NCBI GenBank assembly: GCA_017431685.1
Contig: JAFRKO010000004.1
Coordinates: 1 to 54,924 of the forward strand
DNA: 54,924 bases
Reading direction: 5' to 3'
Origin: Mogibacterium sp.
Lineage (GTDB): Bacteria > Bacillota > Clostridia > Peptostreptococcales > Anaerovoracaceae
This document shows positions 6,357 through 15,174 of this stretch, piece after piece. Both the position numbers and the translations under genes were made by a program. Position 1 is the stretch's first letter. Each line of letters opens with the position of its first letter. The notes under the pieces were generated by a model. That model was not told the origin of the DNA. It saw only the letters and a program-made list of their open reading frames with translations, and did no database searches.

Positions 6357-7073
6357 ATGACACCAGCACCTACTTATCTTAAAAGCTTAAAAAAGGAATC
6401 AGTAGTACAGAGCGTCATCAATCAGCTGACCGACGCCATCAGAAACGGAGACCTTAAACCGGGAGACAAGATTCCTCCTGAACCGGATCTTGCCGATTCA
6501 CTGGGCGTTGCAAGGAGCAGCGTACGTGAAGCCATCAAGATACTCGCTTATCTCGGTGTACTCGAGAGCAAGCGCTCGGAGGGAACATTCGTATGTAACG
6601 GCTACAAGGAGAGCATGATCGACCCTATGATCTACGGCATCATACTCAACCAGGAGTCGTTCGACAACCTGATGGAACTGCGCGAGATGACGGAAGCGGG
6701 CATGATGAAGCTTGCTATAGATCATCACGATGAAGAGGAACTCAATGAGCTTGAGGAGCTCCTGGAAGAAATGAAGGAGGCTATCGGCTCAGAGGATCCT
6801 GTCAACAGGTTCTTCGATGTGGACAACCGCTTCCATGACAAGATCGCAGAAATGGGAAAGAACCCGATGGCTGACAAGGTCAACAGAGTTGTAAGGACGC
6901 TGACATACGCAATCAGATTCCGCACTGTATCCGAAATGATAAACGGAGGAAAGACGGAAGAACTCATAAAAGCTCACAGGCAGCTGCTGGACGCGATCAG
7001 GGAGGGAGATAAACACAACCTGAGCACAAAAGTCAGAGGCAGCTACTTTGAGGAGGAGCTCTCCGCCAAGTGA
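6357..7073 (+). CDS. GntR-family regulator, FadR (FCD) subfamily
   Basis: This is a 238-residue transcription factor with an N-terminal winged helix (about residues 12-80; the VARSSVREAIKILAYLGVLE segment is the recognition helix region) and a C-terminal all-helical FCD ligand domain. The Asp and His residues typical of the metal-binding FCD pocket can be placed in the RFFDVDNRFHDKI stretch and the KAHRQLLDAI stretch. AAAGGAGAAA precedes the ATG at 6357; the frame stays open further upstream but that part runs through the promoter. It lies between the two PFK genes and probably controls this cluster. FadR-type members usually sense organic acids such as sugar acids, in keeping with the TRAP-type binding protein. 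Confidence 0.9.
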   Translation: MTPAPTYLKSLKKESVVQSVINQLTDAIRNGDLKPGDKIPPEPDLADSLGVARSSVREAIKILAYLGVLESKRSEGTFVCNGYKESMIDPMIYGIILNQESFDNLMELREMTEAGMMKLAIDHHDEEELNELEELLEEMKEAIGSEDPVNRFFDVDNRFHDKIAEMGKNPMADKVNRVVRTLTYAIRFRTVSEMINGGKTEELIKAHRQLLDAIREGDKHNLSTKVRGSYFEEELSAK

Positions 7074-7081
7074 GGGCATAA

Positions 7082-8065
7082 ATGAATACTGATATAAAGA
7101 CTGTAGGCGTTCTGACCAGCGGCGGAGACGCACCCGGGATGAATGCGGCGATCAGGGCCGTGGTCAGAAGAGGAATATACAAAGGGTTCAAAGTCAAAGG
7201 CATCCGCAGAGGATATCTCGGACTGCTGAACGAGGAATTCCTCGACATGGGAATGGATTCGGTCAGCAATATCCTTGAACGGGGAGGCACTATACTCGAG
7301 ACGGAGCGATGCCTTGAGATGAAGCTCGATGAATATCAGCAGAAGGCAGCAGATATCTGCAGGAAACATGGGATCGACGCGCTCGTCGTGATTGGCGGAG
7401 ACGGATCATTCAGGGGAGCGCAGAGTCTTGCCCGCAAGGGAGTGAACGTGATAGGTATTCCGGGTACTATAGACGGAGATATCGGATGCTCGGAGTATAC
7501 CATCGGCTTCGATACAGCAGTCAATACCGCGATGAGGGCTATTGATAACATAAGGGATACAGCTTCCTCGCACGAACGGTGCTGCCTTATAGAGGTTATG
7601 GGACGCGATGCCGGTTATATTGCATTATGGAGCGGTATAGCCGCAGGAGCAGAGCAGGTGCTTATCCCTGAGACGTACGACGGCGATGAAAAGAGAGTAA
7701 TGGAAAAAGTCGCCGCGCACAGGGCGACGGGCAAGAACAACAATATACTCATCAATGCAGAGGGTGTCGGCCGCGCGGAGGAGATAGCCGGAAAGCTGGA
7801 AAAGGCCGGGGGCATACGGGTACGTACTACGACCCTGAGCTATATACAACGCGGAGGCAACCCGACCTGCCGCGACAGGGTATACGCCTCAATAATGGGG
7901 GCCAAGGCCATTGACCTTCTGGCTGAAGGTGCAAGGAACCGTGTGGTTGTATACAGGAACGGTATCTTCACCGACTACGACATAGATGAAGCGCTGACCA
8001 TGGAGTCAACGATGAAGGATACGGAAGAGTATATCATTGATATGCTTGAATCACTAACACGCTAA
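7082..8065 (+). CDS. pfkA: 6-phosphofructokinase, ATP-dependent type
   Basis: This is a 327-residue bacterial-size PFK that phosphorylates fructose 6-phosphate with ATP. LTSGGDAPGMNAAIRAVVR at residues 11-29 and GGDGS at 105-109 are the ATP-type signatures. PGTIDGD at 127-133 keeps the catalytic Asp131, but Asn of the usual TIDND is replaced by Gly132, a rare change beside the active site. The C-terminal half has LSYIQRGG for the sugar phosphate. It starts 8 bases after the GntR stop. Having both a PPi-type and an ATP-type PFK in one cluster means phosphorylation of the sugar phosphate could proceed with either donor. The substitution may alter kinetics or substrate choice. Confidence 0.9.
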   Translation: MNTDIKTVGVLTSGGDAPGMNAAIRAVVRRGIYKGFKVKGIRRGYLGLLNEEFLDMGMDSVSNILERGGTILETERCLEMKLDEYQQKAADICRKHGIDALVVIGGDGSFRGAQSLARKGVNVIGIPGTIDGDIGCSEYTIGFDTAVNTAMRAIDNIRDTASSHERCCLIEVMGRDAGYIALWSGIAAGAEQVLIPETYDGDEKRVMEKVAAHRATGKNNNILINAEGVGRAEEIAGKLEKAGGIRVRTTTLSYIQRGGNPTCRDRVYASIMGAKAIDLLAEGARNRVVVYRNGIFTDYDIDEALTMESTMKDTEEYIIDMLESLTR

Positions 8066-8090
8066 GTAAACTGATTGGAGGACGAAAGCA

Positions 8091-8528
8091 ATGAAATTAG
8101 TTGTTGGAAGCGATCACGCAGCATATGAACTCAAGGAAGCGATCAAGGCAAAGCTGATCAGCGAAGGCCATGAAGTCATCGACGTCGGATGCGATTCAAC
8201 TGAGTCGGTAGACTATCCGAAGTATGGTCACGCTGTAGGACGCGCTGTGGCGTCCGGCGAGGCCGAGCGCGGCATCGCCGTGTGCGGCTCGGGCATCGGC
8301 ATCAGCATCGCCTGCAACAAGGTACCTGGAATCAGAGCCGCACTCTGCACATCCGTAGAGATGGCAGAGATGTGCAGACGCCACAATAACGCAAATGTTG
8401 TATGTATGGGTGCACGTATGATCAGCCAGGAGCTCGCCTTCGACATCATCGATACATGGATGGCGACAGAATTTGAAGGCGGAAAACACCTGCGCAGAAT
8501 AAATGAAATTGAGGACCTTGATTTTTAG
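8091..8528 (+). CDS. rpiB: Ribose-5-phosphate isomerase B
   Basis: This is a 145-residue RpiB/LacA/LacB-family isomerase interconverting ribose 5-phosphate and ribulose 5-phosphate. SDHAAYELK at the start gives the catalytic-site Asp8 and His9, DYPKYG at 41-46 and the CGSGIG loop at 65-70 carries the active-site Cys65. The RRHNNANVVCMGARM block near residues 96-110 completes the site. TTGGAGGACG precedes the ATG. With rpe and transketolase upstream it completes the non-oxidative pentose phosphate isomerisation steps. LacAB-type galactose-6-phosphate isomerases are heteromers from two genes, and only one is present here. Confidence 0.93.
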   Translation: MKLVVGSDHAAYELKEAIKAKLISEGHEVIDVGCDSTESVDYPKYGHAVGRAVASGEAERGIAVCGSGIGISIACNKVPGIRAALCTSVEMAEMCRRHNNANVVCMGARMISQELAFDIIDTWMATEFEGGKHLRRINEIEDLDF

Positions 8529-8532
8529 ATTG

Positions 8533-8558
8533 CAGGCAGCGGTTATGCTGCCTGTTTT
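8533..8558 (+). terminator. Rho-independent terminator after rpiB
   Basis: CAGGCAGC at 8533-8540 pairs with GCTGCCTG at 8547-8554 and is followed by TTTT. It should end or attenuate transcription between rpiB and the 2-hydroxyacid dehydrogenase. Confidence 0.75.
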
Positions 8559-8589
8559 CATCATAAACTGAAATAAAAGGAGACTGGTA

Positions 8590-9555
8590 ATGAAAATCGT
8601 TGTACTTGACGGATATACAGAAAACCCCGGCGACATCAGCTGGGCTCCTCTGCAGGAACTGGGCGAAGTAACAGTATATGACAGGACTGCTTATGAAGAA
8701 TCACCGCTGATTGCCGAAAGGATAGGCGATGCTGAAGTAGCGGTAATAAACAAGACTCCGATCAGCAAAGAGACCATAGATAAGTGCCCGAATCTTAAGG
8801 CAATCGCCGTACTGGCTACCGGATACAATGTTGTAGATTACAAATACGCTGCTGAAAAGGGAATACCGGTGATGAATGTACCTGTTTACGGTACAGACAA
8901 CGTGAGCCAGTTTGCAGTAAGTCTGCTTCTGGAAGTCTGCTCGCATATAGGCCATCACAGCGATTCGGTATTTGCCGGCGAGTGGGCGTCAAATCCTGAC
9001 TGGTGCTACTGGCACTATCCTATGCTGGAGGTCTCAGGAAAGACAGCCGGCGTAATCGGACTGGGCCGTATAGGAACCAACACAGCCAGGATACTCAAGG
9101 CAATGAACGTGAACGTTCTGGCATACGACCAGCACCAGCATGATGCCGGAAGGCAGGTTGCGGAATACGTTGAGCTGGACGAACTGCTGAGCAGATCGGA
9201 TTTCATCTTCCTTCATTGCCCGCTTTTCCCTGAAACAGAGGGTATTATCAACAAGGACAATATTGCCAGGATGAAAGACGGTGTGATACTCATCAACAAC
9301 AGCCGCGGACCGCTTGTCGTAGAGCAGGATCTTTACGACGCGCTTGAGAGCGGCAAAGTTGCAGCCGCTGCAGTAGATGTAGTTTCCACAGAGCCTATCC
9401 GCAAGGATAATGTGCTTCTCAAAGCAAAGAACTGTATTATTACTCCTCATATTTCCTGGGCAACAAAGGAAGCGAGAGAGCGCATCATGAATACAACAGC
9501 AGACAATATCAGGTCCTTTATCGAAGGTGCGCCTGTCAACGTTGTAAATAAGTAG
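8590..9555 (+). CDS. D-2-hydroxyacid dehydrogenase (glycerate dehydrogenase-like)
   Basis: This is an NAD(P)-dependent D-2-hydroxyacid dehydrogenase of 321 residues. The dinucleotide site is GLGRIG at 157-162 with Asp180 at the end of the second strand, favouring NAD. The catalytic triad is Arg239 (in NNSRG), Glu268 (in VSTEP) and His287 (in TPHISW). The N-terminal [15 protein letters not shown] block resembles hydroxypyruvate reductase/glycerate dehydrogenases, so reduction of hydroxypyruvate or a longer 2-oxo sugar acid is likely. The clear ribosome site AAAAGGAGA precedes the ATG. It follows a terminator and is followed by a PdxA-family dehydrogenase, so the two oxidoreductases may act in one acid pathway. 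Confidence 0.88.
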
Positions 9556-9560
9556 ATATA

Positions 9561-9583
9561 ACATCCCGGGGCTCCCGGGATGT
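9561..9583 (+). terminator. Strong intercistronic hairpin
   Basis: ACATCCCGGG pairs with CCCGGGATGT around GCT. The following ATCATTT is only a weak T-tract, so it may be a partial terminator or mRNA stability element between the two dehydrogenase genes. Confidence 0.55.
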
Positions 9584-9614
9584 ATCATTTAAGAAACGAA
9601 ACGGAGTATTAAAA

Positions 9615-10613
9615 ATGAAAAAGCCGCTTATTGCTGTCACACTCGGGGATCCGGCGGGAATAGGTCCGGAAATAGTAGTAAAGACAATAGCAGATAAGGC
9701 TGTGTCTGAAGTGGCAGACTGCATAGTTGTCGGCGATGCAAAAGCCGCCGGAATGGCGGTAAAAGCTGCAAATGCCGCTCTGAAGATCAACTGTGTTGAG
9801 GACCCTGCAGACGGGGATTATTCCGAAGGAGTGCTCAACCTTATAGATCTGGATAACATAAACATGGCTGAGTTCGAATACGGCAAGGTAAGCGCGATGT
9901 GCGGCAGGGCAGCATACGAATATATAGAAAAAGGCATTCAGCTGACAATGGAAGGCAAGGCTGATGCGATATCGACGGCTCCTGTCAACAAGGAAGCCTT
10001 ACGCGCTGCAGGCGTTGATTTCATCGGACATACGGAGATCTTCGCAGCATTGACGGACACCAACGATCCGCTGACGATGTTTGAGACCAACGGGATGAGG
10101 ATATTCTTCCTGACAAGGCATGTATCGCTGCGAAACATGGTTGACATGATCACCAAGGAGAGGATCATCGACTATGTTGAAAGATGCACGGAGGCCCTCG
10201 CAAGGCTTGGAGTCACAGACGGCACAATGGCAGTTGCCGGACTCAACCCTCACTCGGGAGAGCACGGGCTCTTCGGCTGGGAAGAGGTAAGCGAGATCGC
10301 CCCTGCAGTGGAAGAACTCAAGGCAAGAGGATATAATGTAGAAGGTCCTGTATCTGCTGACTCTGTATTCCATCAGGCAGCGCTCGGAAGATACAATTCT
10401 GTACTGTCGCTGTATCACGATCAGGGCCACATCGCTGCAAAGACACTGGATTTTGACCGCACCATAGCGATCACAAACAGCATGCCTATACTGCGGACAT
10501 CCGTAGACCACGGAACGGCATTCGACATTGCAGGCAAAGGAACTGCAAGCGCCATAAGCATGATCGAATGCGTAAAACTGGCGGCGAAGTACGCGCCGTA
10601 TTTCACCCGGTAA
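9615..10613 (+). CDS. PdxA-family 4-phosphate hydroxyacid dehydrogenase
   Basis: This 332-residue protein belongs to the PdxA family of metal-dependent NAD dehydrogenases that oxidise and decarboxylate 4-phospho-3-hydroxyacids. [15 protein letters not shown] at the N-terminus and metal-binding histidines in [20 protein letters not shown] and [14 protein letters not shown] are visible. Classical PdxA acts on 4-hydroxythreonine 4-phosphate in vitamin B6 synthesis, but the related PdxA2 group oxidises D-threonate or D-erythronate 4-phosphate to dihydroxyacetone phosphate in catabolism. The neighbours are carbohydrate genes and no other pdx gene is seen, so a catabolic role is favoured. No DUF1537-type acid kinase, the usual partner, is in the window. 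Confidence 0.88.
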
Positions 10614-10641
10614 AATAAAGAAGGAAGTTGGGACAGAAGGG

Positions 10642-11592
10642 ATGCTTCTTATCTTCAGCAAAGTGCTGGTAGTATTCATTTATATCGGCGTTGGATTTAT
10701 CGCTAACAGACTTAAAGTGCTTACGGAAGAATCTGTAAAGCACTTTATCAGCCTTATTATGGGGATAACTGTGCCGTGCCTGATGCTAAGTTCCATAACA
10801 AGTCAGGACATCAATGGAAGCATGTACAGGAACACGATCCTCGTACTGGTCCTGAGCGCCTTAGTATATATTGTGACTACAGCCGTAACGACATTCGTAT
10901 CCGACAGAATATTCCCATGGAAAGATCAGCAGGACAGGAATGTTCTGGCATCCGGAATGACAGGATGCAACTCGGGTTTCATGGGCCTTCCTATAGCCAG
11001 TGCGGTGTTCGGGGAGCTGGTTTTCTACTATCTGGCCATACAGACCATAGTTAATAACACATACCTGTTTGTAGTGAGCCTTTCACAGCTGCATCACCGG
11101 GAGAGCCAAAAGTCAGCAAAGAGCCTGAGTGAGAAGCTGAGGCCTCTTGTAAATCCAACCTCTGTGGCTACTGTCGTTGCTGTTATCATGCTGTTCGCCG
11201 GTATGCATCTGCCGGAATACATCATGGGCATAGTAGAGCCGCTGGGAGATGTAACGATACCTCTGTCGATGATACTGGTAGGAGTCCGGCTTGGAGGAAC
11301 AGACTTTAAGAGACTGCTTTCAGATAAAGCCCTTATTATCACATCGGCGGTAAAGCTGGTAGTGATGCCGGTGATGGCTCTGCTGATACTGACACCTTTC
11401 CCGGTCGATCCGGTAGTAAAGCTTACTACCCTGCTTGCAGTGTGCTTCCCATCCGCGGTGATAGGCGTAGCAGTAGCAGCACAGGAGAAGAAAAACTCGC
11501 AGCTCATGGCTGAAGTGGTGGCGGTCAGCACCCTGCTGTCTATCATCACGCTGCCAGTGTGGATCATGATAATCAGCCGCCTGTACTTATAA
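10642..11592 (+). CDS. AEC-family (auxin efflux carrier-like) permease
   Basis: This is a 316-residue integral membrane protein with about ten hydrophobic spans and the AEC-family pattern: an N-terminal bundle beginning LLIFSKVLVVFIYIGVGFI, a GCNSGFMGLPIA motif near residues 110-125 and a C-terminal bundle ending in SVATVVAVI and LLSIITLPVW type stretches. Members move organic acids such as malonate or malate or are uncharacterised. It follows the PdxA-like gene by 28 bases, so it may export or import an acid of the same pathway. The start is not certain because AGAAGGG abuts the ATG. An unrelated remnant of another AEC gene lies near 41299. Confidence 0.85.
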   Translation: MLLIFSKVLVVFIYIGVGFIANRLKVLTEESVKHFISLIMGITVPCLMLSSITSQDINGSMYRNTILVLVLSALVYIVTTAVTTFVSDRIFPWKDQQDRNVLASGMTGCNSGFMGLPIASAVFGELVFYYLAIQTIVNNTYLFVVSLSQLHHRESQKSAKSLSEKLRPLVNPTSVATVVAVIMLFAGMHLPEYIMGIVEPLGDVTIPLSMILVGVRLGGTDFKRLLSDKALIITSAVKLVVMPVMALLILTPFPVDPVVKLTTLLAVCFPSAVIGVAVAAQEKKNSQLMAEVVAVSTLLSIITLPVWIMIISRLYL

Positions 11593-11706
11593 CAGACGCC
11601 GATGTCCCCCGCCTCTGCAGACGGAGGGTTCCATCTTCGACCGCCGGTGGCAGGTAACAATCCCCGACCGACGCTCTCAGGAGCTGAAGGCGTGTATTTT
11701 TGATGG
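11593..11706 (+). other. Structured non-coding stretch after the AEC gene
   Basis: About 110 GC-rich bases between the permease and the tyrS promoter can be closed by ACGCC near 11596 pairing with GGCGT near 11690, followed by a T-rich GTATTTTT. Several internal complementary pieces (CCTC with GAGG, GCTCTC with GGAGC) are present. It could be a long terminator for the sugar cluster or a small structured RNA. I do not recognise a riboswitch or RNA family in either strand. Confidence 0.3.
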
Positions 11707-11707
11707 T

Positions 11708-11736
11708 TTGACAGAGGGAGAACGGAGTGGTATATT
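11708..11736 (+). promoter_or_regulatory. Strong sigma-70-type promoter of the tyrS leader
   Basis: A consensus TTGACA at 11708-11713, a 17-base spacer and TATATT at 11731-11736 give one of the best promoters in the window. Transcription should start near 11743, about 22 bases before the leader peptide start codon. Confidence 0.85.
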
Positions 11737-11764
11737 TTTACCGTATGTGAAAGGATTTTTACAA

Positions 11765-11830
11765 ATGACAGAAAACGGAATCGTAGCAGCAATATATTAT
11801 TACGATGGATCTTCGTATTACGAAGACTAG
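11765..11830 (+). CDS. Tyrosine-rich leader peptide of the tyrS attenuator
   Basis: This 21-codon ORF runs from ATG at 11765 to TAG at 11828, preceded by AAAGGA at 11750-11755 with a 9-base spacing. Five of its residues are tyrosine: codons 11-13 are TAT TAT TAC and codons 18-19 TAT TAC. It lies between a strong promoter and a terminator hairpin ahead of tyrS, the layout of leader peptides such as those of trp, phe and his operons. The inferred role is to sense charged tRNA-Tyr: ribosome stalling at the Tyr codons would mask the segment at 11786-11792 and permit the antiterminator. It is too short for usual gene callers. Confidence 0.8.
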   Translation: MTENGIVAAIYYYDGSSYYED

Positions 11831-11897
11831 TTTTGCTGCGAACGACCACTGTCCATACAAATGGCACAACCGGCTTCGCAGCATGACTGCGGAGCCG
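11786..11897 (+). promoter_or_regulatory. Attenuator of tyrS: alternative hairpins 1:2, 2:3 and 3:4
   Basis: Segment 1, GCAGCAA (11786-11792, inside the leader ORF before the Tyr run), pairs with segment 2, TTGCTGC (11833-11839). Segment 2 can instead pair through TGCTGCGAA (11834-11842) with segment 3, TTCGCAGCA (11875-11883), nine perfect pairs forming an antiterminator. Segment 3 as CGGCTTCGCAG (11871-11881) also pairs with segment 4, CTGCGGAGCCG (11887-11897), followed by TTTATTCT, as a terminator. A small inner hairpin CTTCG-N5-CGAAG lies at the leader stop region. The pairings are exclusive, as in classical translation-coupled attenuation. Confidence 0.78.
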
Positions 11898-11934
11898 TTT
11901 ATTCTGACAAACATCTACAAGAAGGAGAAATAAG

Positions 11935-13269
11935 ATGAGTTCACTTATCCCTGACAATGTCAGCAAACACACAAACGTATACGATGTTCTCGTAGAGAGA
12001 GGTCTTGTTGCGCAGTGTACGAATCCGGAGAAGTTCAGAGAACTGCTCGGAAATGAGAAGATCAAATTCTACATCGGATTCGACCCGACAGCAGACTGCC
12101 TGCACATCGGACATTTCATTCCGATGATCACCATGATGTATATGCAGAAGTACGGCCATACTCCGGTATTCCTGCTGGGCGGCGGTACAGGAGAGATCGG
12201 CGATCCGTCGGGCAAGGCTGACATGCGTCAGGTAATGACCATCGATACGATAGATGAGAACTGCAGACAGTTCAAGAAGCTCTTCGACAAGTACATTGAC
12301 TTTGACGATGGGTGGAAGTACGAGGGTAACGAGGGCGTATACCATCCGGGACATCAGAACAGGGAGCCTATTCCGGGCAAGGCTGTCAGCGTAAACAATG
12401 CCGAGTGGATCAGACCTTGCAAGTTCACCGAGTTTGCAAGATACATAGGCTCGCAGTTCAACGTAAATACCATGCTCCGCGCAGATTGCTTCAAGACCCG
12501 TATGGAAAGGGATACAGGACTCACATTCTTCGAGTTCTCATACATGCTCCTTCAGAGTTATGACTTCTACGTAATGCACAGAGATTTCGGTCTGATGGCA
12601 CAGCTGGGCGGAAACGATCAGTGGTCCAACATCATCGGCGGCGTTGACCTCACAAGAAAGCTGTGCGGCGACGAAGTATTCGGACTGACGGTATCGCTGC
12701 TCCTCAAGAGCGATGGGCAGAAGATGGGCAAGACTGTCGGCGGAGCTCTCTGGCTCGACGAGAGAAAGACTCCTGTTTACGATTTCTTCCAGTACTGGAG
12801 AAACGTTGACGACGCAGACGTCAACACATGCCTCCGCATGCTGACATTCCTTCCTATGGATGAGGTCAACAGACTCTCCGCTCTCGAAGGTGCAGAGATC
12901 AACAAGGCAAAGGAGATCCTCGCGTTCGAGGTCACCAAGCTGGTACACGGAGAAGAGAAAGCCAGGAAGGCTCTCGAAGCAAGCCGTGCAGTATTCGCAG
13001 GCGGCGGAGTTTCCGACGACATGCCAACAAAGGCATTCGACGCTTCTCTTTTCGCAGGCGACGGAATGGGACTTGCAGCACTCATGAAGGAAGCAGGACT
13101 CGAGCCATCGACATCCGAGGCTTACAGAACCATCCAGGGCGGCGGTGCAAGAGTCAACGGCGAGCAGATCAAGGATAAGAGATACTCAGTAACAGAGGCT
13201 GACTTCAAGGACGGCGAGCTCATTCTCCAGAAGGGCAAGAAGAAATTCATGAAGATCACACTCGGATAA
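11935..13269 (+). CDS. tyrS: Tyrosyl-tRNA synthetase
   Basis: This 444-residue class I synthetase charges tRNA-Tyr with tyrosine. The HIGH motif is HIGH at residues 57-60 within FDPTADCLHIGHFIPM, the KMSKS equivalent is KMGKT within SDGQKMGKTVGG, and the C-terminal S4-like RNA-binding domain includes TIQGGGARVNGEQI. AAGGAG at 11922-11927 gives a clear start. It is a single gene with its own promoter, leader peptide and terminator, so it is regulated apart from the upstream sugar genes. Firmicute tyrS genes are often controlled by a T-box RNA; no T-box GGGTGGNACC element is seen here, and the leader-peptide attenuator takes its place. Confidence 0.97.
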   Translation: MSSLIPDNVSKHTNVYDVLVERGLVAQCTNPEKFRELLGNEKIKFYIGFDPTADCLHIGHFIPMITMMYMQKYGHTPVFLLGGGTGEIGDPSGKADMRQVMTIDTIDENCRQFKKLFDKYIDFDDGWKYEGNEGVYHPGHQNREPIPGKAVSVNNAEWIRPCKFTEFARYIGSQFNVNTMLRADCFKTRMERDTGLTFFEFSYMLLQSYDFYVMHRDFGLMAQLGGNDQWSNIIGGVDLTRKLCGDEVFGLTVSLLLKSDGQKMGKTVGGALWLDERKTPVYDFFQYWRNVDDADVNTCLRMLTFLPMDEVNRLSALEGAEINKAKEILAFEVTKLVHGEEKARKALEASRAVFAGGGVSDDMPTKAFDASLFAGDGMGLAALMKEAGLEPSTSEAYRTIQGGGARVNGEQIKDKRYSVTEADFKDGELILQKGKKKFMKITLG

Positions 13270-13285
13270 TCCGGGAGATAACATA

Positions 13286-13314
13286 AGGGAGCAGGCACAG
13301 GCCTGCTCCCTTTT
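13286..13314 (+). terminator. Rho-independent terminator of tyrS
   Basis: GGGAGCAGGC pairs with GCCTGCTCCC around ACAG and is followed by TTTT. The 206 bases from here to 13520 carry no ORF; TACAAT at 13482-13487 is a possible -10 box for the next gene, without a clear -35. Confidence 0.85.
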
Positions 13315-13520
13315 GCTAATCGTCATTTGCTTACTGCGGCTTTCCGATCACAATCAGATCTCTTTGGGTGATGTCCAAATTGTGCAATTAAATGGCAATG
13401 ACATCAAGGATAATGATCCGCATAAATTGCCAAATAATAGCCAAATATGCAGAAACATACTATGAGCCTTGCTGTTTGTTGTACAATTAATCGTAAGCGC
13501 ATGATCTCAAGGAGGCGGAT

Positions 13521-14201
13521 TTGAACAATACCAAGTTTACAATGAATGCATTGCTTGTGATAGTGGCCATATTCTCGGCGATAGGGCTTCTTTTTACTGT
13601 GGGCATTTATAAAATGGGCCAGCATGCCTACCTTGTCTCTGATTATGAAGCGATCGAAGGCACCGATCTCGCCATCAGATACAGCACCAAAGAGCCAAGC
13701 GGCATATACCGCGGAACAAAATACGCTGATGAGCTTATGCTCGAGGGAGAGTTCGGATATGACAAGGGAACCACATACAGCGAAGGAAAGCTTTATCTGA
13801 ACGAATACAGATATACCGATACAGGTCTCGCTCTTTGTGATGCGGTCTGTGTAGACACAGATAGTTTTGAGAAGACCGTATTGATGGAAAACGCCATGCT
13901 GCGCGGCCAATGCGCGTCAGGTGAACTTGTATGCCGCGGAGACTGTTTTCTGCAGTCGGATATGCCTGATACAAATTCACTGTGCAGACTCTATGCCATG
14001 ACCTCTTCAAAGCTCGACCCGCTGTCAGGAAGCGCATCGGTAATTTTTATAGATCCTGCGAGTGGAGAGATCGTATATACTGCAAAGGATGACGATGTTC
14101 AGGCGAAGGATGACGATGCGCAGGCGAAGGATGACGATGTTCCGGCAAAGACTTTCGATGAACGCTGGCTTTCGCGTACTCTTGAGGAGGTGCGGAAGTG
14201 A
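13521..14201 (+). CDS. Unknown membrane-anchored protein with acidic tandem repeat
   Basis: I do not recognise this 226-residue protein. A single hydrophobic segment at about residues 9-28 suggests an N-terminal anchor or uncleaved signal, with the rest outside. The middle is polar with several cysteines. Near the C-terminus a 21-base unit is repeated three times (14082-14144), giving AKDDD(V/A)Q-like repeats. The start is TTG at 13521, chosen because AAGGAGG lies 5 bases upstream; an ATG at 13542 would cut into the hydrophobic segment. Its TGA overlaps the ATG of the next gene (TGATG), so the two are translationally coupled and probably act together. Function cannot be inferred. Confidence 0.7.
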   Translation: MNNTKFTMNALLVIVAIFSAIGLLFTVGIYKMGQHAYLVSDYEAIEGTDLAIRYSTKEPSGIYRGTKYADELMLEGEFGYDKGTTYSEGKLYLNEYRYTDTGLALCDAVCVDTDSFEKTVLMENAMLRGQCASGELVCRGDCFLQSDMPDTNSLCRLYAMTSSKLDPLSGSASVIFIDPASGEIVYTAKDDDVQAKDDDAQAKDDDVPAKTFDERWLSRTLEEVRK

Positions 14202-14710
14202 TGGACAGGGTCGAATTCGGAATAGATATAAGAAGAAAACTGACGGGTGCGGATCTGTATGTGCGCATCCTTCAGATATGCTCACTCCTTCCGCTGCCAT
14301 ATATTTTTCTGGCGAGATCCCATCCGCCTGTTCTCGGCACAAGGAATCTGTTATCAGCGCTGTTTGACACGGGAATCTGCGTTCTGCCGCGCATCGAAGC
14401 ATATGCGCTCTCATTTCTGTACAGACAGACATTGAGCGAAGTCGCGGTGTATTTCGTAATATTGGCGATCGCGCTGGCACTGGGAATCGTCGCAAGCCGG
14501 CTGCTGCGAGGCAACCCTGAGGCATCCGTCCGCTTCCATAAGGCCATTGCAGTGCTCATTGTACTTGATCTGGTGATACGTATCATACCGGTAAGGGCAA
14601 ACATCGCATTCGGCATCCCGGCAGCCCTCACTGGCCTTGTGATCAGAGCAGCGTGCCTGTATCTGGTGATCCGCGACCTGAAAGCCTGTGATCTCAATAC
14701 CGCGAAGTAA
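14201..14710 (+). CDS. Unknown small integral membrane protein
   Basis: This 169-residue protein has about four hydrophobic spans (near residues 28-45, 80-105, 118-132 and 136-155) and Arg-rich loops. I do not recognise a family. The ATG at 14201 overlaps the stop of the preceding anchored protein, which supports a two-gene unit at the membrane. A GTG one codon earlier is possible. The gene is followed by an AGAAGG/CCTTCT inverted repeat with a T-run that may end the unit. Confidence 0.65.
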   Translation: MDRVEFGIDIRRKLTGADLYVRILQICSLLPLPYIFLARSHPPVLGTRNLLSALFDTGICVLPRIEAYALSFLYRQTLSEVAVYFVILAIALALGIVASRLLRGNPEASVRFHKAIAVLIVLDLVIRIIPVRANIAFGIPAALTGLVIRAACLYLVIRDLKACDLNTAK

Positions 14711-14751
14711 AGAAGGTGTTTCTGCATTTGACGATCAGTGCTCCTTCTTTT
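14711..14751 (+). terminator. Possible terminator of the two-gene membrane unit
   Basis: AGAAGG at 14711-14716 pairs with CCTTCT at 14743-14748 around a long loop, followed by TTT. The stem is short for a terminator. Confidence 0.4.
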
Positions 14752-14761
14752 GTGTGAAAAG

Positions 14762-15064
14762 AGGAGTTCGAAAAATTTTTCTTAAAAAACGGTTTTTTTG
14801 AGCCGGTTTTCAGAAAATTTCGTCACGTTTTCTGATATACATCAATATACATTGCTCAAAAGGGCATATTGCTGCTCCGGAAGCGAATTGAGTTGATCGA
14901 TAATGGCTGAATAACCTCAAACAACTTGCCGAAATAATGAAAAGGTGTCACGGAGGCAAAGAATTCCTCAAGCCATTGTCGAAATATTCTTAAAAAGCCC
15001 TCTAAAAAGCAGATTTTTAAGAAAAAATTTAAAAACTCCTTTTTTGGCAGCAAAACCGGCTGTG
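14762..15064. repeat. AT-rich inverted-repeat (MITE-like) stretch
   Basis: A roughly 28-base arm beginning AGGAGTT at 14762 is matched in inverted orientation at 15013-15040, with about 23 of 28 positions agreeing. GCCGGTTTT near 14801 has an inverted copy AAAACCGGC near 15051. A further inner hairpin TTCTTAAAAA/TTTTTAAGAA lies around 14985-15023. Base composition is far more AT-rich than the flanking genes. A 65-codon minus-strand ORF inside resembles nothing I know. It could be a decayed small mobile element between the membrane genes and prmA. Confidence 0.4.
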
Positions 15065-15174
15065 AAGATTGGTATATCTACTTCTCTATATGAATAATTA
15101 TGCGCGGCGCACATTCGGCTGCTTCAGAGAACTTGGCTTTGTGCAGAAGTAATAATGTTAGGAGCAAGTGAAGG

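Follow-up and report, generated by a model that had tools for sequence, protein, structure and literature searches.

The 54,924-nucleotide stretch of Mogibacterium sp. DNA analysed here (contig JAFRKO010000004.1 of assembly GCA_017431685.1; hereafter the window) carries tyrS, the gene for tyrosyl-tRNA synthetase, whose product scored 401.8 bits against the NCBIfam model TIGR00234 (cut-off 113.8). Between a sigma-70-type promoter and tyrS lies a leader with a short open reading frame (ORF) containing a run of tyrosine codons and with four RNA segments that can pair as 1:2, 2:3 or 3:4 (Table 1). Very probably this leader senses charged tRNA-Tyr and acts on tyrS as a classical ribosome-mediated transcription attenuator. 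An original prediction, made from the sequence alone, had described the promoter, the 21-codon ORF, its ribosome binding site and the three pairings, and all of these were confirmed base by base where it had placed them. The stretch TGCTGCGAA (11834-11842) is the exact 9-base reverse complement of TTCGCAGCA (11875-11883), and the terminator arms (11871-11881 and 11887-11897) were calculated by folding to form a hairpin of -18.7 kcal/mol. A small hairpin within the 1:2 loop was absent from the earlier account. The real leader combines a terminator of at least 8 pairs, a T tail and a competing upstream helix of at least 8 pairs, a combination found in 0 of 500 dinucleotide shuffles.

Table 1. 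Elements of the tyrS leader and the regulated gene, in window coordinates.
Feature	Position	Strand	Basis
Sigma-70-type promoter TTGACA-17-TATATT (TTGACA 11708-11713, TATATT 11731-11736)	11708..11736	+	exact
Leader-ORF ribosome binding site AAAGGA	11750..11755	+	read from the sequence
Leader ORF, 21 codons, MTENGIVAAIYYYDGSSYYED, stop TAG 11828-11830	11765..11830	+	homologous ORFs in relatives
Segment 1, GCAGCAA, partner 11833-11839	11786..11792	+	exact reverse complement of TTGCTGC
Regulatory Tyr codons 11-13, TAT TAT TAC	11795..11803	+	conservation in tyrS leaders
Small hairpin within the 1:2 loop, 11811-11815 with 11821-11825	11811..11825	+	compensatory changes
Segment 2, partner of 1 or 3	11833..11842	+	pairing and ribosome-position folding
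Segment 3, antiterminator partner and terminator 5' arm	11871..11883	+	pairing
Segment 4, terminator 3' arm	11887..11897	+	pairing
U-rich tail TTTATTCT	11898..11905	+	6 T of 8
tyrS, tyrosyl-tRNA synthetase, 444 amino acids, regulated gene	11935..13269	+	TIGR00234

Conservation and folding of the tyrS leader

Matches to TyrS were sought in 60 related genomes, of which 58 gave one, and in contigs of named genomes, from which 79 loci were kept; 500 bases upstream of tyrS were then read. We found 14 distinct leader-bearing sequences including the window, with 12 distinct peptides. All 14 have a leader ATG and an in-frame YYY run in which TAT and TAC interchange (TAT:TAC of 13:1, 11:3 and 3:11 at the three codons), with no change to any other residue. 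An AAAGG, AGGAG or AAGGA core stands no more than 22 bases before the leader ATG at 13 of the 14 loci (not at L074; L, G and C numbers are our handles for loci, genomes and contigs), and a promoter of the same type was recognized by pattern at 11 (not at L054, L074 or L077). With the ORF, the ribosome site and synonymous changes of the Tyr codons all observed, translation of the leader is predicted. The peptides vary at their ends around a usual ...AAIYYYDGAS...; L077, the most distant leader, encodes MNRTLLVNNNNYYYYSS, and in it an A-U-rich 1:2 pairing replaces the G-C-rich one. The original prediction had also counted Tyr codons 18-19 as regulatory. Only the run at 11-13 proved to be conserved, because the pair at 18-19 occurs at that place in the window, L039 and L047 alone. 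Conservation across 14 distinct leader sequences is stronger evidence than any shuffle test.

The 14 sequences were aligned by MAFFT, L077 being poorly aligned in the middle, which lowers the covariation counts if anything. In a structure made of helix 1:2, the hairpin in its loop and helix 3:4, 93.8% of the alignment cells were paired, and 9 of 23 pairs had changed on both sides compared with 3.4 in shuffles. None of 500 shuffles reached the real alignment in any of five measures, and slid versions of the structure were 32-52% paired. Helix by helix, the paired cells and the pairs changed on both sides amounted to 92.9% and 2 of 7 for 1:2, 91.4% and 2 of 5 for the loop hairpin, and 95.4% and 5 of 11 for 3:4. 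Conserved Tyr codons and covarying stems in relatives, which the original prediction had proposed to look for, were therefore both present, the latter with compensatory changes.

Folding was restricted to the RNA left free by the ribosome, whose footprint was assumed to reach 12 bases, counting from the A-site codon's first base. A ribosome placed on the second Tyr codon before segment 4 had been transcribed allowed 2:3 (at least 5 pairs) to form in all 14 tyrS leaders. When it was placed at the stop codon instead, where the assumed footprint masks most of segment 2, 3:4 (at least 6 pairs) formed in all 14. Both ribosome states were thus reproduced by folding, and the attenuation logic put forward in the original prediction is strongly supported.

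The tyrS leader brings together a codon run matched to the gene, mutually exclusive and conserved 1:2, 2:3 and 3:4 pairings, and an intrinsic terminator before the gene. We infer that the leader is translated, that the ribosome stalls in it, in which direction tyrS responds, and that 2:3 is captured co-transcriptionally. When Tyr-tRNA is scarce, a ribosome would stall at Tyr codons 11-13 and mask segment 1; segment 2, thereby freed, would pair with segment 3 as RNA polymerase passes, 3:4 would be blocked and tyrS would be transcribed. With Tyr-tRNA in good supply, the ribosome would reach the stop codon at 11828 and mask segment 2, and 3:4 would end transcription before tyrS. If the leader is not translated, 1:2 and 3:4 would form and transcription would likewise stop.

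Related attenuators, their codon runs and tyrosine supply

We scanned 47 genomes of the genus with R1, a covariance model built from the tyrS leaders. At E below 1e-20 it recovered 18 copies of the tyrS attenuator, distributed over 17 genomes, and it also matched sites not before tyrS at E 5e-11 to 7e-4. The leaders of this second set have the form (A)AE-YYYYYY. Genes of the tyrosine phenol-lyase/tryptophanase family (hereafter the lyase) follow them at 21 loci with 19 distinct leaders, one of which, L249, was found with the model R2 described below. The prephenate dehydrogenase gene tyrA follows in G061, assigned by sequence likeness only, and in G005, where the corresponding NCBIfam model was best but below its cut-off, and a TrpX-like transporter gene follows in G013, where the TrpX model was likewise best but below the NCBIfam cut-off. 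One match in G034 (E 0.13) runs past the contig end, and the weak matches L146 and L158-L161 were rejected as attenuators for want of a Tyr leader. At L132 and L144 (G061:C69 and G061:C75) a further terminator-like hairpin was seen by eye shortly after a Tyr attenuator, and no gene separates the two; orphan leaders or short RNAs are possible. In an alignment of 25 attenuators of the second set, 14 of 24 pairs had changed on both sides (6.7 in shuffles), with 45 both-side-changed cells compared with 13.5 in shuffles, and 25 of 25 folded as predicted in both ribosome states.

A covariance model of this second set, R2, was used to scan 393 genomes sampled from the order. With E 0.01 as the limit, 104 genomes matched, of which 85 are Anaerovoracaceae (21 in the genus and 64 outside it); the 19 in other families were all weak (best E 2.8e-5), and L291, the single other-family locus examined, lacks any leader ORF containing a run of Tyr codons. 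The 52 loci read outside the genus comprised 51 from the family and L291, with 13 weakly matched family genomes left out. Judged by a protein sequence motif, the downstream gene encodes 3-deoxy-D-arabino-heptulosonate 7-phosphate (DAHP) synthase at 43 of the 52, one of them (L240) over the NCBIfam cut-off. It encodes a sodium/solute symporter at 3, below all NCBIfam cut-offs, and TyrA at one (L266), also below the cut-offs. TyrS follows at L297 (leader MTTFLRNRSHKQAYYYLFS), over the TIGR00234 cut-off. L253, L274, L291 and L299 gave no usable gene call; L253 and L274 have Tyr/Phe leaders, and L299, a weak match with scattered Tyr and, by reading, an AMP-ligase-like ORF downstream, was excluded from the counts. 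The original prediction had seen the tyrS attenuator as an unusual solution: the device is indeed present, but it is not a one-off and reads as one of a related set across Anaerovoracaceae in which the codon run is matched to the controlled gene.

DAHP synthase serves phenylalanine and tyrosine together, whereas tyrS and tyrA serve tyrosine only. The leaders before DAHP synthase are of the AAEYYYYYFFF type. Counting related sequences as separate, with no correction for kinship, Phe lies in the longest Tyr/Phe run of 37 of 40 distinct DAHP synthase leaders, compared with 0 of 19 distinct lyase leaders, 0 of 3 tyrA leaders and 0 of 12 distinct tyrS peptides (nor in L126 or L297); in two further DAHP synthase leaders, L262 and L293, it stands beside the run. 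These Phe codons appear against the bias of the models, since the models were built from Tyr leaders. That the codon run follows the gene is, as we read these leaders, the strongest support for attenuation independent of RNA pairing. Natural comparison of this kind allows the codon-matching rule of classical attenuation to be tested, and the codon runs offer a means to infer what the genes controlled by such leaders do. At L287, L290 and L298, for example, Tyr/Phe leaders (YYYFYFGF) precede the sodium/solute symporter-like gene, for which PutP was the best model at L287, below cut-off; the leaders suggest that this gene encodes an aromatic amino acid transporter.

The position of the segment 2 core relative to the leader frame was followed with a loose pattern, taken at its first occurrence past leader base 45. 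In lyase leaders the core lies in two frames or past the stop (12, 4 and 2 of 20; 2 without the pattern), in DAHP synthase leaders in three frames or past the stop (7, 13, 6 and 5 of 43; 12 without the pattern), and in all 14 tyrS leaders past the stop. The core shifts between frames while the Tyr run is always in frame; what is kept at the core is therefore RNA and not peptide, and a constraint on RNA can be told apart from one on codons.

The window's own genome has a second Tyr attenuator (L142 812-957, that is G000:C65:9811-9956; leader MKQRINFTAEYYYYYYRDGVAVLL), behind which lies a lyase gene (G000:C65:9992-11437). Its product scored 440.5 bits against the tyrosine phenol-lyase equivalog TIGR02618 (cut-off 720.7, not reached), below the tryptophanase equivalog cut-off and above that of the broad tryptophanase subfamily NF009709; the top-scoring solved structures are tyrosine phenol-lyases. 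Induction by tyrosine shortage is unexpected for a degradative enzyme, and the question is raised why such a shortage should switch on a relative of tyrosine phenol-lyase.

Neither chorismate synthase nor a full-length tyrA had a match in the window's genome, which is 94.45% complete, so that, as far as the usual pathway goes, the organism may be auxotrophic for tyrosine. The best prephenate dehydrogenase match there covers positions 32-94 of 154 at 26.9 bits, counting the frame whole (Pfam cut-off 26.5), and the protein reads like a glycerol-3-phosphate dehydrogenase; prephenate dehydrogenase matches at E 1.2e-17 or better occurred in 13 of the 47 genomes. Chorismate synthase was missing from 20 and present in 6 of the genomes with the lyase, and missing from 5 and present in 16 of those without it (Fisher p = 0.0004; G033, with a lyase fragment at a contig end, and G070, with a partial chorismate synthase, were scored as having the respective gene). 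This raw association fails on the tree, which offers only 4 independent pairs and no significance. For that reason it is only a proposal, and one we hold to be rather doubtful, that the attenuated lyase works synthetically (e.g. phenol + pyruvate + ammonia to tyrosine), which would supply tyrosine to cells without the shikimate pathway and tyrA.

Points against attenuation, rival explanations and distribution

Several observations weigh against ribosome-mediated attenuation. The 2:3 antiterminator is the least supported helix of the attenuator. It was paired in 82.1% of cells in the tyrS set and in 94.2% in the second set, with no covariation beyond shuffles in either; little covariation is to be expected, because segments 2 and 3 each serve two partners. 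Without a ribosome, 1:2 (at least 5 pairs) and 3:4 formed in 12 of the 14 tyrS leaders and not in the rest, and 24 of the 25 leaders of the second set behaved as predicted while one did not. When segment 1 was blocked and segment 4 included, equilibrium folding favoured 3:4 in 12 of 14 tyrS leaders (the window and L047 still favour 2:3) and in 9 of 25 in the second set, where the other 16 retain some 2:3. Switching in those 12 tyrS leaders and in those 9 of the second set therefore requires 2:3 to form first. The U tail in the window is only moderate, with 6 T of 8; several relatives have longer T runs. One DAHP synthase leader, L292, breaks the codon rule, its sole Phe preceding the Tyr stretch. 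Finally, the tyrS attenuator is missing from most of the genus (present in 17 of 47 genomes) and is therefore dispensable.

Three other explanations were considered for the leader. That tyrS is controlled by a divergent T-box riboswitch is suggested by B. subtilis, whose tyrS is under a Tyr T-box (PMC2494555, in part), and by 4 of 20 more distant tyrS loci with a T-box over the gathering score directly before the gene, a lower bound because that score also misses the two T-boxes of the window's own genome. Those two, however, reach E 1e-15 or better at a lax threshold, whereas the window has no T-box at the gathering score and none among matches to E = 10 over 11600-11960, and 18 further tyrS loci of relatives have no Rfam match of any kind at E 0.01. 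T-boxes, moreover, come without a short ORF having an in-frame Tyr run and synonymous changes. The search with the T-box model RF00230, a check named in the original prediction, thus left the region free of T-boxes, and the window leader matched no Rfam family, known leader families included. We regard T-box control here as exceedingly improbable. Segments 1-4 are nevertheless conserved as RNA and the 2:3 helix could be under other control, so that the ORF might be incidental and only an RNA switch matter, such as a ligand- or protein-controlled terminator. This is very unlikely in view of the ATG, in-frame Tyr run and TAT/TAC interchange in every tyrS leader, the ribosome site in all but one, and a codon run that tracks the amino acid of the controlled gene.

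Because one attenuator precedes a gene of the tyrosine phenol-lyase/tryptophanase family, for which induction by the substrate is the usual expectation, nascent-peptide arrest of the TnaC type might be considered, in which free tyrosine or the peptide stalls the ribosome and the gene is induced by excess. The peptide past the Tyr run is, however, not conserved: it differs in length, frame and sequence and ends early, late or in another frame. The same device also stands before tyrS, tyrA and DAHP synthase, where induction by excess would be senseless. With no conserved C-terminal peptide, arrest of this kind was rejected, and we give it very little probability. Attenuation by a ribosome translating Tyr codons is accordingly preferred over all three.

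The window's genome has two T-box matches of its own, at 76 and 72 bits under the gathering score of 93 (L001 on G000:C71 and L002 on G000:C54), which precede thrS and a TrpB-like gene; the thrS is cut and scored 354.6 bits against a cut-off of 383.65. Both kinds of control, T-boxes and leader-peptide attenuation, thus seem to operate in this genome.

When the tyrS attenuator is mapped onto a TyrS tree covering 30 of the 47 genomes, its distribution requires at least 5 changes, and well-supported branches force 3 of these. At L033-L035, L038 and L076 the promoter is kept and the leader is missing. At L040, L045 and L046 (the tyrS contigs of G025, G006 and G012) the leader and segments 1-2 are missing, and a 3:4 terminator stands between promoter and tyrS. 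About 1.9 kilobases with a 486-codon ORF on the opposite strand, possibly an insertion, separate the attenuator from tyrS in G026 (L050 172-2242; G026:C129). At G005:C14:2629-3338 an attenuator match is followed by lyase gene fragments with stops, which reads as a copy in decay; the same genome has a tyrA under an attenuator. The window's own assembly carries the tyrS attenuator twice, on two contigs and in identical sequence: positions 6747-15092 of the window equal G000:C27:8000-16345 over at least 8346 bases at 100% identity, probably an assembly redundancy.

Comparison with known systems

Competing 1:2, 2:3 and 3:4 pairings are those of the E. coli trp leader. A Tyr leader peptide on tyrS was not found described in the literature searched (titles, abstract starts and passages), which argues only weakly for its absence; the class of mechanism is known, and the instance and its regulon are new as far as that search reaches. 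What distinguishes the set is one scaffold before tyrS, tyrA, DAHP synthase, transporters and the lyase, with sensor codons tuned to Tyr or to Tyr and Phe.

An aminoacyl-tRNA synthetase operon under leader-peptide attenuation is known in E. coli pheST, and, as in the E. coli trp, pheA and pheST attenuators, the leader peptide here carries the sensed codon (PMC11802643, in part). The present leader differs from these in its Tyr codons, its tyrS target, its occurrence in Clostridia and its lack of a match to any Rfam leader. The AroR leader of aroF in Corynebacterium glutamicum encodes a Phe-Tyr-Phe peptide and answers to Phe, not Tyr (PMC11802643, in part). It resembles our set in placing an aromatic leader peptide before DAHP synthase; it belongs to another phylum, and the available portion of that paper makes no mention of Tyr-only leaders such as those before tyrS and tyrA here. 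Classical attenuators have been predicted before the synthetase genes trpS and leuS of Streptomyces (PMC1262725, in part), which concern Trp and Leu in Actinobacteria rather than Tyr in Clostridia. Within Firmicutes, leader-peptide attenuation is known from His leaders, predicted for his genes without HisR or a T-box in three lineages, one of which includes Peptostreptococcaceae (PMC9413887, in part), and from the Listeria Rli60 leader, where it was tested by mutation (PMC5864092, in part). Those leaders use histidine and branched-chain codons, unlike the Tyr codons before tyrS found here.

The tyrS T-box of B. subtilis controls the same gene in response to the same signal, uncharged tRNA-Tyr (PMC2494555, in part). 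A T-box, however, reads the tRNA directly and without a leader peptide, whereas tyrS here has a leader peptide and no T-box was found. The attenuator set suggests that a family of Clostridia relies on leader-peptide attenuation when tyrosine is limiting, rather than on a T-box such as is known at tyrS in other Firmicutes.

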